Shown here piece after piece: positions 8,881 through 64,000 of a stretch of DNA of 64,000 nucleotides (positions are counted from its first letter, which is position 1; the number at the start of each line of letters is the position of its first letter). The notes under the pieces are model-generated. The model was not told the origin of the DNA. It did not search any database and saw nothing but the letters and a program-made list of their open reading frames with translations. Origin of the DNA: Sediminibacterium sp. (GTDB lineage Bacteria; Bacteroidota; Bacteroidia; Chitinophagales; Chitinophagaceae); NCBI GenBank assembly GCA_017537025.1, contig JAFWCB010000008.1, positions 62,001 through 126,000 of the forward strand. Direction: 5' to 3'. A program made the translations under genes and the position numbers.

Positions 8881-9798
8881 ATGTATATGGAAGCAATTAA
8901 ATTAGCAATAGACTGGACGCCCAATGTGAATCATATAGGATTCTTTGTTGCAAGAGATATAGGACTGTATGAAAAAAACGGTATCACACTTGAAATACAT
9001 AACCCGTTAGACGATAATTATCGGATAACACCTGCCAAAAAACTAGAACTCGATCTCGCCGATTTTGCCATTGCACCTTTTGAAACAATCATTAGCCTGA
9101 ATAATAAAATAGATAAAGTAGATGCCATTGGTGTTTTTGCTATTTTACAAAATGATCTTAGCTCCATTGCAACTTTAAGGGAATCAAATATAAACTCTCC
9201 ACGCGACCTTGATAATACAATATATGCTTCCTATAAAGCAAGGTATGAAGATCAAATTGTGAAGCAAATGATTATCAATGATGGTGGTACAGGTAATATC
9301 CATATTATATATCCTGATAAACTAGGTATTTGGAATACCTTATTGGAAGGTAAAGCAACCGCTACTTGGATTTTTGATAATTGGGAGGGTATTGAGGCAG
9401 AAACAAAAAATATACAACTTCAGAAGTTTAAAATGAGTGATTTCGGAATTCCCTATGGCTATTCCCCTGTGCTACTAACAAAGCAAACAAATATTACAAC
9501 TAAAAAAGACCTATATATAAGATTCTTGAAAGCTACTAAAGAAGGGTTTTTATATGCAAAAAATAATATCGATGAATCCATAAGTATTTTACAGAAATAC
9601 CTAACAGCTTATGATTTGCAGCATATAGACCTGATAAAGTCTTTTAAAGCCACAGTACCTCATTTTGGAGATGAAAAAAATTGTGGGGAAATGGAGGAAG
9701 ATAGGGTAATCTCTTTTTTAGAATGGATAGTGGAACAGCAATTAGAAACTAAGCTTATTCTTGAACAACATTTATATACCAATGAGCTTCTCGAATGA
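8881..9798 (+). CDS. THI5/NMT1-like substrate-binding-fold protein without signal peptide
   Basis: The 305-residue protein begins MYMEAIKLAIDWTPNVNHIG and continues FFVARDIGLYEKNGITLEI, the opening of the SsuA/THI5 family (ABC-transporter solute-binding proteins and eukaryotic HMP-phosphate synthases). It lacks a signal peptide or lipobox, so it should be cytoplasmic, and no permease or ATPase gene is adjacent. The CCCFC cysteine motif of yeast Thi5 is not seen. It may bind a pyrimidine-like or other small ligand; the function is open. It stands alone between the hem terminator and the aldehyde dehydrogenase. An alternative ATG is at 8887. Confidence 0.75.
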   Translation: MYMEAIKLAIDWTPNVNHIGFFVARDIGLYEKNGITLEIHNPLDDNYRITPAKKLELDLADFAIAPFETIISLNNKIDKVDAIGVFAILQNDLSSIATLRESNINSPRDLDNTIYASYKARYEDQIVKQMIINDGGTGNIHIIYPDKLGIWNTLLEGKATATWIFDNWEGIEAETKNIQLQKFKMSDFGIPYGYSPVLLTKQTNITTKKDLYIRFLKATKEGFLYAKNNIDESISILQKYLTAYDLQHIDLIKSFKATVPHFGDEKNCGEMEEDRVISFLEWIVEQQLETKLILEQHLYTNELLE

Positions 9799-60747: not shown

Positions 60748-61386
60748 CTAGAGCATACCAACGGATTTGAGTTTGTTTAGCATTGAAATGCAATCCTCGG
60801 TTCCTGTTTTTTTAAATAAGGCAGCTCTTTTTTTGCTGGCTACCGATTCTGAAATATTCATTTGATGGGCAACTTCTTTAAGGGGTAGGCCTTCGTCTAA
60901 TAATTGAGCCAATCTCATTTCTCGGGGTGTTATGCTTTCTAACCATTCTATCGGGGTATTTTGAATGTTAATGATATCTTGCTCCGTAAGTCCAAAAGAT
61001 GTTGGAAAATAATAATCATTATGAATAACCGCATGAATAGCACAGGTAATTTCATCTGAAAAATAGTCCTTACTGGTATATGCTTTAACGCCGTATCTAA
61101 TCATACCCTCCATAACCTGTTTGTCTCCGAAAATTGTATTTACAATAATTTTTATATCCGGATGGTATATTTGCAAGTGTTTGGCAACATCATAGCCATT
61201 CATGCCTTTTAGCATTTGAACGTCTAGTATTAATATGGTAGGCTCTTGGTTTTCTTTACAATATGCCAAACATGCTTCTCCACTATACACCGGAGGAAGA
61301 ATTTCATGTTCAGTTTTTAAGTGCAGATAGTCGGCTAAGGAGTTGGCAACTCTTTGATTATCGTCGCAGATTAGTATGGAAATCAT
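60748..61386 (-). CDS. Response regulator with LuxR-type DNA-binding domain
   Basis: A 212-residue NarL/FixJ-like regulator. The receiver domain has Asp8 and Asp9 in ICDDN, phosphoacceptor Asp55 in ILILDVQML, and Lys106 in YTSKDYFSDE, so it looks phosphorylatable. The LuxR-type helix-turn-helix is in ITPREMRLAQLLDEGLPLK and EVAHQMNISESVASKKRAAL. No histidine kinase is adjacent. It diverges from the VKOR-thioredoxin gene, and two similar dyads lie between them. Confidence 0.9.
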   Translation of the reverse strand: MISILICDDNQRVANSLADYLHLKTEHEILPPVYSGEACLAYCKENQEPTILILDVQMLKGMNGYDVAKHLQIYHPDIKIIVNTIFGDKQVMEGMIRYGVKAYTSKDYFSDEITCAIHAVIHNDYYFPTSFGLTEQDIINIQNTPIEWLESITPREMRLAQLLDEGLPLKEVAHQMNISESVASKKRAALFKKTGTEDCISMLNKLKSVGML

Positions 61387-61471
61387 AGGGGTGGTTTAAA
61401 TTTTTTGAAATCTCTTGGAATTTGCGATACTTATAGAACGAATATATTGAAATTATTTTTAATAAAGAAGA

Positions 61472-61538
61472 GGGGATACTTTTGTATCTTTTTTTCAATT
61501 TTCATAAAAAAGGGACTTTTGTACCCCCTTTTCAATTT
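61472..61538. promoter_or_regulatory. Tandem dyad repeat with -7-like elements
   Basis: Copy A (61472-61501) contains GATACTTTTGTATC and copy B (61512-61538) contains GGGACTTTTGTACC; both end in CAATTT. The cores CTTTTGTA are 37 bases apart. TACTTTTG at 61477-61484 matches TAnnTTTG. The region lies between the response regulator and the fusion gene at 61586, so it may be the regulator's binding site plus promoter. Confidence 0.5.
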
Positions 61539-61585
61539 GGTTGTTACTATTTTCTCTCCGAAGTTTATATTCTAACGATTTAAAC

Positions 61586-63199
61586 ATGATTGCCGGTTCG
61601 ATTTTTAAAAGCTTGTATGAAAATCAAGTATTGATTGTAAAAGCTTTATTACAACAACTAAAAGTGAAGGTAAATATCAATACCATTGATGATACTTTAC
61701 ATAACCACCCCGATTACCCAAGTTTTTTATCTATTACCGATTCCTTACAGAAATGGAATGTAGAAAGTTTAGCGATACAAACAAGTGCAGATAAGTTGGA
61801 TGAAATACCTGTTCCTTTTATCACAAGTTTAAAGTCAGGCGTTTTTGTAACGGTTATTGCTGTTGATAATCAAAATATAAATTTATGTAATCAACATGGG
61901 AAGAAGGAATTGATTGAAAGGGAATCTTTTTTGAAAATCTGGACAGAAACCATTGTAGTAGCTGAAGCCAATGAAAAATCAGGTGAGCCTGATTATAAAA
62001 AGAAACTGAATCAATCCATTATTAAATCTATCACCTATAGCCTATTACCTATAACCTGCTTAGCATTTGTTCTATGGCCATTTATTAACGGTACAGATGG
62101 GCTTTTGCCAACAGCCTATTTGCTGCTAAAACTGGTTGGCTTAACTGTTTCGCTTCTATTACTTTGGTATGATATAGACAAGGGTAACCCGCTTTTAAAG
62201 CAAATATGTTCAGGTATACAAAAAGCTAATTGTAATGCGGTACTCAATACCAAAGCAGCATCTTTATTTGGTGTTTTAACTTGGAGCGAGGTTGGGTTTA
62301 TTTATTTTTCCGGTAGTTTGTTATTTGCATCATTTGCAGGTATTAAAGAGATAATGCCTGTATTATGTAGCTTATCGCTTTTAGCTTTTCCCTATATATT
62401 CTTCTCTATTTATTATCAATGGAGGATTGCGAAACAATGGTGTGTGCTTTGTTTACTTGTTCAGTCTGTATTATTATTAGAAACAGTTCTGGTATTAATA
62501 GGTACCCGTATATCAGTAGATACTGTTATAAATACAGTTAATAATTATTGGATTATAGCTATTATCTCTATAGCTATTCCCACTATAAGCTGGTTCTTAG
62601 TAAAGCCATTATTGAAGAAATTACAAAAAGCAAAGTATGAGAAAAGAAGCTATTTGCAGCTAAAGTATAACGATCAAGTATTTTGGTCTTTACTACAAAA
62701 ACAAAAGTCTATAGTAGAGCATGACACAGAAGGTTTAGGAATATTAATTGGTAACCCTAACGCTAACCATACAATTGTTAAAGTATGTAACCCATATTGT
62801 GGCCCTTGCGCTAACGCGCACCCTGAGCTAGAGAAGGTTATTGCACAAAATCCCAATATAAATGCTCAAATTATTTTTTCAGTGAGTAATAGCGAAGATG
62901 ACTATAGAGTGAAACCGGTAAAGCATTTATTGGCAATAGCCGAAAAGAGTAATGAGCAGCTAACACACAAAGCATTAGACGATTGGTATTTAGCCACCGA
63001 GAAAGACTATAACTCGTTTGCTAATAAATATCCGATGAATGGAGAGTTAAAAATGCAAACGGCAAAAATTGAGAAAATGAGCAATTGGTGTAATAATGTT
63101 GGCATTCAATATACCCCAACCCTTTTTATTGATGGCTACGAGCTACCAAAAAATTATCAATTAAAAGATATTAACTATTTTATCCATGAAGATATATAA
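61586..63199 (+). CDS. C39-like, VKOR and thioredoxin domain fusion protein
   Basis: A 537-residue membrane protein with three parts. Residues 1-125 look like a C39-peptidase-like domain (HNHPDYPSFLSITDSLQKW) without an evident catalytic Cys. Residues about 145-340 are a VKOR-type membrane domain with Cys208 and Cys216 and the QWCVLC pair Cys286/Cys289. Residues 370-537 are a DsbA/thioredoxin-like domain with CNPYCGPC (active Cys405, Cys408). Such a layout can form disulfides in exported peptides, and the next gene encodes an eight-cysteine peptide. The ATG at 61586 is preferred over a TTG at 61541. Four heptamers at 62030-62057 encode part of helix 1. Confidence 0.85.
   Translation: MIAGSIFKSLYENQVLIVKALLQQLKVKVNINTIDDTLHNHPDYPSFLSITDSLQKWNVESLAIQTSADKLDEIPVPFITSLKSGVFVTVIAVDNQNINLCNQHGKKELIERESFLKIWTETIVVAEANEKSGEPDYKKKLNQSIIKSITYSLLPITCLAFVLWPFINGTDGLLPTAYLLLKLVGLTVSLLLLWYDIDKGNPLLKQICSGIQKANCNAVLNTKAASLFGVLTWSEVGFIYFSGSLLFASFAGIKEIMPVLCSLSLLAFPYIFFSIYYQWRIAKQWCVLCLLVQSVLLLETVLVLIGTRISVDTVINTVNNYWIIAIISIAIPTISWFLVKPLLKKLQKAKYEKRSYLQLKYNDQVFWSLLQKQKSIVEHDTEGLGILIGNPNANHTIVKVCNPYCGPCANAHPELEKVIAQNPNINAQIIFSVSNSEDDYRVKPVKHLLAIAEKSNEQLTHKALDDWYLATEKDYNSFANKYPMNGELKMQTAKIEKMSNWCNNVGIQYTPTLFIDGYELPKNYQLKDINYFIHEDI
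62030..62057. repeat. In-frame heptamer quartet
   Basis: ATCACCT, ATAGCCT and two more units of form ATNNCCT encode residues about 149-158 (ITYSLLPIT) of the fusion protein, in the first membrane helix of the VKOR domain. Confidence 0.65.
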
Positions 63200-63204
63200 C
63201 CTTA

Positions 63205-63233
63205 TTTCTTTTTGCTTAGTACCCAAAAAGAAA
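63205..63233. other. Intercistronic hairpin
   Basis: TTTCTTTTTG (63205-63214) pairs with CAAAAAGAAA (63224-63233) around a nine-base loop, between the fusion gene and the peptide gene. It might stabilise or attenuate the downstream message. Confidence 0.5.
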
Positions 63234-63328
63234 AGTACAACGGTACTACACTTACAAAGTGGTTGTGCGAGCCAATTATCTGCTGATGCTTTAAGCTGCA
63301 GGAATTTATCTAACTTTAATTTATCAAA

Positions 63329-63556
63329 ATGAAGCAGAAATTTCAAAACTTGGGGATTCTAATAAGTAGAAGTGCTCAAAAAAAGCTGATCGGAGGTGAT
63401 GAGACTCTTGGTGATGGTACTGGATCTTGTAGTGGCAATACATCTTCTGATACATGTTCAAACACATGTACTGTCACCTGCAATGGTACAAGTACTAGTG
63501 GAAACTGTAAGTGGAGTACTACTTATAGTAAGTGTTACTGTGTTGCGGGCTGCTAA
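63329..63556 (+). CDS. Double-glycine-leader, eight-cysteine secreted peptide precursor
   Basis: A 75-residue peptide. The leader MKQKFQNLGI LISRSAQKKLIGG ends with Gly22-Gly23, the cut site of C39-type peptidase transporters. The core is rich in Thr, Ser and Gly and has cysteines at 34, 43, 47, 51, 60, 69, 71 and 75, enough for four disulfides. I do not recognise the core. It sits 129 bases after a gene encoding a disulfide-forming fusion, and has its own terminator. A bacteriocin, signal or RiPP-like product is inferred. Confidence 0.75.
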   Translation: MKQKFQNLGILISRSAQKKLIGGDETLGDGTGSCSGNTSSDTCSNTCTVTCNGTSTSGNCKWSTTYSKCYCVAGC

Positions 63557-63578
63557 AACTAGCTTTTTTATTAAAATT

Positions 63579-63615
63579 AAAACAGGGTTATACTCTTTCA
63601 TTATAGCCCTGTTTT
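63579..63615 (+). terminator. Terminator of the peptide gene
   Basis: AAAACAGGGTTATA (63579-63592) pairs with TATAGCCCTGTTTT (63602-63615) with one G-T wobble. It lies 22 bases after the peptide stop; the final T run is only four long. Bases 63616-63737 show nothing further. Confidence 0.65.
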
Positions 63616-63737
63616 GATTGCATGTATGCTTCTATTGTTTTATTAATAAACCAAATACTTGAGTGGCTAGATTAAGCTAAGAAGAATACCTACTCAGAAA
63701 AAGTAATAATTATACCTTAATCAGTTTTCTACTAGTT

Positions 63738-64000
63738 ATGTTCAATTTAATTTCATCAGGTAATTTAAAGTTTAAAACTATAGTACTGATAGTTTATTTG
63801 TTATTTATACTTTTAAATTCAAGGAATTTTGTTTATTGCCAAAATTACAAAGTTCCTATGTTGAATGTAGGGGATAAGGCGCCCTCTTTAGGAATAAGTA
63901 AATGGCTTAAAGGAGATACTATTTATAAATTACAAAAAGGTAAGGTATACGTATTAGAGTTTTGGGCTACATGGTGTAAGCCTTGTATTGCATCAATGCC
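63738..64000 (+). CDS. TlpA-like thioredoxin (partial, N-terminal)
   Basis: The frame from ATG at 63738 is open to the window edge. It starts with a hydrophobic signal or anchor (TIVLIVYLLFILLN), then LNVGDKAPSLGISKWLKGD and FWATWCKPC, the CxxC active site of TlpA/ResA-type periplasmic thioredoxins. It follows the Cys-rich peptide gene and so could provide reducing or isomerising power for it. The 3' part is outside the window. Confidence 0.85.
   Translation, partial: MFNLISSGNLKFKTIVLIVYLLFILLNSRNFVYCQNYKVPMLNVGDKAPSLGISKWLKGDTIYKLQKGKVYVLEFWATWCKPCIASM

Follow-up and report, generated by a model that had tools for sequence, protein, structure and literature searches.

A C39-like/VKOR/thioredoxin fusion as a candidate disulfide-forming enzyme for double-glycine, cysteine-rich peptides of Bacteroidota

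The 64,000-nucleotide stretch of Sediminibacterium sp. analysed here (the window: contig JAFWCB010000008.1, positions 62,001 to 126,000; G000:C23:62001-126000 in our genome set) carries at its end a gene for a protein in which a C39-like domain, a VKOR domain and a DsbA/thioredoxin-like domain are fused. We consider it probable that this fusion is an enzyme dedicated to forming disulfides in exported peptides with a double-glycine (GG) leader and a cysteine-rich core, and that it acts on the precursor in the cytosol, before export by a peptidase-containing ATP-binding cassette transporter (PCAT); the target peptides are probably bacteriocin-like. An earlier note on this DNA had proposed a dedicated pathway on the strength of four consecutive genes, encoding a response regulator, the fusion, a GG peptide with eight cysteines and a TlpA-like protein. 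All four are present by Pfam and open reading frame (ORF) evidence (Table 1), and the notion of a dedicated pathway was borne out, in that many genera have GG/Cys-rich peptides together with the fusion, far above background.

The fusion matches the Pfam families Peptidase_C39 (PF03412, 2e-10), VKOR (PF07884, 1e-13; 52.0 bits against a Pfam cut-off of 27.5) and Thioredoxin_4 (PF13462, 1.2e-11). The Sediminibacterium homologues begin at the position that corresponds to its ATG at 61586; further upstream, at 61541, there is a TTG in the same frame. Homologues were collected from named contigs (L003-L022) and, at an E-value of 1e-15 with partial matches included, from genome sets; the family counts given below refer to the 88 distinct full-length fusions that were left of 102 fusion-model ORFs once a duplicate and 13 ORFs that were partial or split had been set aside. 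All six redox cysteines, i.e. the VKOR loop pair, the VKOR CxxC and the thioredoxin CxxC, are kept in every one of the 88, the position of S234 is occupied by serine in 82, and the commonest thioredoxin motif is CGPC (39/88). A quinone-dependent disulfide-forming activity is predicted for the fusion. At one locus, L210, the fusion is split into two ORFs.

The N-terminal part is related to the C39 domains of PCATs (hhalign probability 99.1; match to PCAT1 at 6.9e-4) and, unlike active C39 peptidases, it lacks the catalytic Cys and His: alignments revealed no DCG motif in it, and a His is found at any of residues 82-91 in at most 3 of the 88 fusions. A Cys is present somewhere within the 38 residues before H41 in 17/88. 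Since the DCG motif is missing and a His at residues 82-91 is so rare, the domain is, as judged by its residues, protease-dead.

The gene arrangement ties the fusion to peptides. Under a rule that looks for an ATG ORF of 35-150 codons encoding GG, GA or GS followed by at least four Cys within 1.5 kb downstream of the fusion, 68 of the 88 fusions have such a neighbour; a leader rule, described below, adds three (L087, L093, L114) and inspection by eye two (L084, L107). The first kb after the fusion holds 84 GG-type ORFs on the strand of the fusion and 2 on the opposite strand, and elsewhere the opposite strand has about 0-0.08 per kb. When similar fusions are grouped, a peptide is found by the stricter leader rule in 40/58 groups at 60% identity and in 26/39 groups at 45%. 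As a control, we used 26 PCAT loci without a fusion at the locus, drawn from the best matches to the own-genome PCAT in 119 class genomes (in most of these genomes a fusion elsewhere was not checked for). These loci have 0.023 ORFs per kb on the PCAT strand versus 0.021 on the other, with at least one ORF in 9/26; by the same ORF rule, the fusion loci have 0.134 versus 0.025 per kb, with at least one ORF in 75/83. The earlier note had left it undecided whether small GG/Cys-rich ORFs accompany such fusions more often than by chance; they do, and fusion-free PCAT loci stand at background. Two loci, L119 and L120, contain 19 and 17 GG-type Cys-rich ORFs, respectively, large arrays of peptides that surround a single fusion and PCAT.

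A second control consisted of 28 VKORs without a C39-like part (no match before model position 162), taken with 1.5 kb on each side. By eye, none of these 28 loci shows a leader-like peptide; there were several rule hits, mostly G+C-rich frames. Two fusions that had come in with the plain-VKOR set (L160, L178) did show peptides. L208 and L209 (G317 and G263), which are identical VKOR-thioredoxin family members without the C39-like part, have no leader-like peptide nearby.

The window peptide has a homologue in Sediminibacterium salmoneum (L003:21327-21557) that comes right behind a further copy of the fusion, shares 62.5% identity over the aligned residues and has eight Cys. Differences between the two genes fall 18/19/42 on the three codon positions, with a dN of 0.29 and a dS that is saturated and so not computable. 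Because a homologue is conserved in S. salmoneum with differences of the coding type, the window peptide is, on this comparison, a real gene under purifying selection and not a chance ORF, which removes the concern, voiced in the earlier note, that it might lack conservation in related genomes. The S. salmoneum stretch L003:3969-21557 is an array of fusion-peptide pairs that also holds a lone 273-codon C39-type ORF (8960-9781) and masked stretches.

For the family as a whole we applied a leader rule that ignores Cys and that was written after the peptides from the first ORF rule had been inspected. It yields 89 distinct peptides, in which the number of Cys is 0 in one, 1 in one, 2 in two, 4 in 14, 5 in one, 6 in 45, 7 in three and 8 in 22; the number is thus even in 84/89, and it is even in 72/76 once similar cores and peptides with fewer than three Cys are removed. 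The leader consensus is L-[ST]-[RK]-x-E-[QML]-K-x-[IV]-x-G-G. Among 85 leaders, position -12 is hydrophobic in 80 and -4 in 82, the search rule partly presupposing -12 and the GG site, and position -7 is hydrophobic in 47 and Gln in 33. With Ile at -12, Leu at -4 and its GG site, the window leader fits the pattern of C39 substrates at these positions. In LahT, leader residues -12, -7 and -4 are accommodated by a hydrophobic groove that is remote from the active site, according to the available text of PMC6363468, and the fusion-linked leaders, as read from their alignment, match most of the groove contacts reported there for C39 domains. The idea in the earlier note that the C39-like part binds the leader therefore stands as far as the C39 homology and most of the leader pattern go; binding itself we infer. 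As to the nature of the peptides, one fusion-linked peptide, from L131, passes the cut-off of the NCBIfam model NF047798 (39.8 bits versus 23.5), and the window peptide and its three neighbours have no match at cut-off to such bacteriocin-like peptide models.

By hydropathy, the fusion family has six helices: the five known from VKOR-thioredoxin proteins and, ahead of VKOR helix 1, an additional one; our hydropathy script predicts this extra helix in 80/88. Lys and Arg are found N-terminal to the extra helix, in the C208/C216 loop, next to the CxxC and behind helix 5, which amounts to a mean K+R of 15.3 on the active-site side versus 0.9 on the other, in the same sense in 88/88 fusions. In contrast, plain VKORs have the reverse bias in 14 of the 15 that could be scored (means of 2.9 on the active-site side and 8.7 on the other; 13/28 lacked anchors and were left unscored), a difference with a Fisher p of 2e-16 when related sequences are treated as independent. 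Because of the extra helix and the Lys/Arg on the active-site side, the positive-inside rule predicts that the C39-like domain, all six redox Cys and the thioredoxin domain of the fusion face the cytosol. The earlier note had the core oxidised during export; given that the predicted topology puts all redox parts in the cytosol, oxidation before export is more likely. One plain VKOR, L168 (the 1500-base surroundings of G432:C21:6172-6555), is a 161-residue protein without C39 that has an extra N-terminal helix of its own, and is possibly another cytosol-facing VKOR.

It is also conceivable, though in our judgement unlikely, that the fusion is a dedicated oxidase in the usual VKOR orientation, with its thioredoxin and VKOR Cys acting in the periplasm while or after the peptide leaves the PCAT. 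With the extra helix in place, a periplasmic thioredoxin would bring the C39-like domain into the periplasm as well, where leaders are not expected, since PCATs remove them at the cytosolic face. The compartment in which oxidation usually takes place is the periplasm, a VKOR-DsbA fusion that complements dsb mutants of E. coli works there (available text of PMC12453122), and the thiol oxidoreductase of the bacteroidetocin region has been proposed to form disulfides in its peptides (PMC6671954, in the part available). Set against these precedents is the placement of Lys/Arg on the active-site side in all the fusions, the opposite of what nearly all scorable plain VKORs display.

In the cytosolic mechanism that we favour, the protease-dead C39-like domain would hold the precursor by its GG leader while the cytosol-facing DsbA/thioredoxin domain would oxidise the core Cys; the electrons would pass to the VKOR loop Cys, then to the VKOR CxxC and on to the membrane quinone. 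The oxidised precursor would then be taken over by the PCAT, whose intact C39 domain would cut after GG, and the core would be exported via HlyD and an outer-membrane channel. Were the electrons to run the other way, the enzyme would keep the Cys of the precursor unpaired, so that a different enzyme could join them in thioether or other cross-links, a possibility that we rate as very unlikely. CGPC, the commonest motif, is typical of reducing thioredoxins, and at one locus, in G481 (L132), LanB and LanC lie no further than about 3 kb from the fusion. However, no LanC or LanB match (PF05147, PF04738) was found in the genome of the window, for which we rejected lanthionine use of the Cys on this ground (radical SAM and YcaO proteins were not searched for across the loci), and among 60 fusion genomes, a LanC-like gene lies within 10 kb only in G481, G643 and G377, and LanB only in G481 and G680. 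Moreover, a VKOR coupled to quinone acts as an electron sink, and the even Cys numbers fit full pairing. The L132 locus (G481:C1:2257956-2264217), where the LanB and LanC genes are directly beside the fusion, is possibly a mixed lanthionine/disulfide locus.

Several observations weigh against cytosolic, leader-guided oxidation. The cytosol is reducing, and stable disulfides there need a special reason. The topology draws on the hydropathy script and the positive-inside rule; moreover, the plain VKOR L168 has the inverted charge sign too, and L208/L209 keep the Lys-rich active-site loop without a C39-like part, so that the link between charge bias and this domain is not strict. At -7 the window leader has Gln, which is not hydrophobic. 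No rule finds a peptide at 15/88 fusions (20 by the ORF rule alone; at L022, 460 bp are left on the contig): fusions without peptides, which the earlier note had taken as telling against its proposal, do exist, as a minority. Full PCATs are missing from the fetched stretch at 28/88 fusions, some of them close to contig ends, and 5 of the 26 fusion-free PCAT loci (L183, L185, L187, L190, L191) have real-looking GG/Cys peptides; the fusion is therefore not required at the same locus. Finally, co-variation between leader and C39-like part beyond general relatedness did not reach significance (partial r 0.089, permutation p 0.07; 0.148 for the VKOR-thioredoxin part).

This non-significant co-variation would suit a C39-like domain by which the oxidase docks to the PCAT, or to some other partner, and not to leaders, so that the enzyme would oxidise the substrates of the transporter. 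A parallel exists in HlyB, where a degenerate C39-like domain recruits a substrate without a GG leader (PMC6363468, available text). We are nonetheless doubtful about docking: C39-fused VKORs adjoin GG peptides and plain VKORs do not, and 24 of the 28 fusions without a full PCAT in the fetched stretch still have an adjoining peptide.

The fusion was found in at least 40/396 genomes of the order (23/159 genera) and in at least 41/394 genomes of the phylum (13/171 genera), all counts being lower bounds as three candidates were scored per genome. Its occurrence among close relatives is patchy (3/60). A full PCAT is present in 60/88 and HlyD in 57/88 of the fetched fusion neighbourhoods. Such patchiness, within the order and among close relatives, would be in keeping with a disulfide oxidase of general function whose proximity to peptide genes is due to chance or to accessory islands shared with them. 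We find that highly improbable in view of the strand- and position-specific pairing in the first kb and of the repeated fusion-peptide pairs within a single stretch, several of which occur in each of L003 and L006. In the class Bacteroidia, VKOR is nearly always of the C39-like fusion type (20/21 VKOR-bearing genomes, our own included), the sole exception being a plain VKOR-type protein in G083 (L177). We lean, if only slightly, towards a yet more specific statement: that an inverted VKOR-thioredoxin enzyme with a dead C39 leader clamp is a leader-dependent installer of disulfides before cleavage and export, and that it is nearly the only form of VKOR in Bacteroidia.

Table 1. Features of the fusion locus. 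Positions are those of the window; L002 is the own-genome stretch running past the window edge (L002 position = window position minus 59999).
Feature	Position	Strand	Basis or remarks
LuxR-type response regulator	60748-61386	-	PF00072 1.6e-14, GerE 2.7e-5; divergent
C39-like/VKOR/DsbA-thioredoxin fusion, 537 aa	61586-63199 (own genome G000:C23:123586-125196)	+	Pfam matches, homologues
C39-like domain, residues 1-131, without catalytic Cys-His-Asp motif	61586-61978	+	PF03412 at residues 17-130
Predicted extra transmembrane helix, about residues 151-170, between C39-like domain and VKOR	62036-62095	+	Hydropathy of 88 fusions
VKOR domain: loop C208/C216, S234, CxxC C286/C289	62117-62494	+	PF07884 at residues 178-303
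DsbA/thioredoxin-like domain with C405-G-P-C408	62738-63184	+	PF13462 at residues 385-533
Precursor peptide, 75 aa	63329-63556	+	23-aa leader ending LIGG; 52-aa core with 8 Cys
Inverted repeat directly 3' of peptide gene	63575-63619 (L002:3576-3620)	+	18-nt arms, 89% complementary
TlpA-like thioredoxin protein	63738-64000, complete as L002:3739-4914	+	Redoxin/AhpC-TSA domains
C39 ABC transporter (PCAT)	L002:4994-7252, beyond window		C39 domain with intact DCG, NHF, DP motifs
HlyD protein	L002:7258-8595, beyond window		
GG-type peptide 2	L002:8797-9000, beyond window		8 Cys
GG-type peptide 3	L002:11631-11864, beyond window		6 Cys
GG-type peptide 4	L002:14570-14734, beyond window		6 Cys

The own-genome sequence past base 64000, where the earlier note had suggested looking for a transporter with a C39 peptidase, further Cys-rich peptides or a kinase, holds such a PCAT, an HlyD protein and three more GG-type Cys peptides (Table 1). 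The note's inclusion of the response regulator and the TlpA-like protein among the parts of the pathway did not hold up: the former has the same position at only 7/88 fusion loci and a protein similar to the latter is found at only 6/88, and both were dropped as core parts. The LuxR-type response regulator is a possible local regulator of the fusion locus. Likewise, the inverted repeat behind the peptide gene is a possible end of the fusion-peptide transcript; it is missing from the output of our terminator scan. Large proteins of 611, 406 and 806 aa, without a Pfam match, follow peptides 2, 3 and 4 (L002:8797-17252); with homologues in 5/83 fusion loci and 2/26 control loci, they were dropped as parts of the system. 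A partial second HlyD gene (L002:13148-14146) and a repeated outer-membrane-like fragment (L002:18501-18947) suggest duplications or remnants within the locus.

Bacterial disulfide formation is taught as a process of the envelope. If the fusion does face the cytosol, Bacteroidota would form disulfides in a reducing compartment by means of a leader clamp, which would be surprising, and disulfide formation would join the leader-guided modifications, like other modifications of ribosomal peptides. On the practical side, the C39-like/VKOR fusion could serve as a genomic marker for thousands of mostly unannotated disulfide-rich peptides, and it is a possible tool for producing disulfide-rich peptides in the E. 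coli cytosol.

The fusion seems to be previously undescribed. In the open-licence PMC literature we found no paper with both VKOR and C39 and none on this fusion, and a word search of a review of VKOR phylogeny (PMC4555120) gave no mention of C39, peptidase or Bacteroid- in the text covered. NCBIfam NF047798 (leader_Chryseo, 'bacteriocin-like protein') covers peptides only. Of the systems described so far, the bacteroidetocin region, likewise from Bacteroidota, comes closest. It combines a GG-leader Cys peptide with a C39 ABC transporter and a thiol oxidoreductase; deletion of the oxidoreductase attenuated toxin activity and its authors propose disulfide formation (Coyne et al. 2019, PMC6671954, available text). 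By that published description, we rejected membership of our locus on leader and core and, more tentatively, on gene set. Bacteroidetocin leaders have 15-16 residues and the cores about 42-48 with at least two and mostly four Cys (PMC6671954, same text), whereas the window peptide has a leader of 23, a core of 52 and 8 Cys, and family cores mostly have 6 or 8 Cys. Furthermore, the oxidoreductase and a five-transmembrane (five-TM) protein are separate in the bacteroidetocin region, and here C39-like, VKOR and thioredoxin domains share one protein. A Pfam scan of nine downstream ORFs recognised no five-TM protein and did recover the TlpA-like oxidoreductase; the bacteroidetocin proteins themselves were not part of this comparison.

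In its redox part, the fusion resembles the Synechococcus-type VKOR-thioredoxin/VKOR-DsbA proteins (PDB 4NV5, 4NV6), with VKOR loop Cys, CxxC and a thioredoxin-like domain, and its profile matches 4NV6 at 4.5e-4. It differs from them in its N-terminal C39-like domain, its extra helix and the opposite orientation predicted for it: VKOR-thioredoxin oxidases have five TM helices and a periplasmic thioredoxin, and by prediction the fusion has neither. A precedent for variable VKOR topology is given by a title of Hibender et al. from 2017, by which the archaeal VKOR of Aeropyrum pernix reportedly acts in two compartments; that archaeal protein is not known to carry a C39 domain or to take part in peptide export. 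The C39-like domain, for its part, is homologous to the C39 domains of LahT and PCAT1 and has lost the catalytic residues as in HlyB (PMC6363468, available text). In LahT, PCAT1 and HlyB, the C39 domain is part of an ABC transporter, whereas in the fusion it is joined to a redox enzyme.

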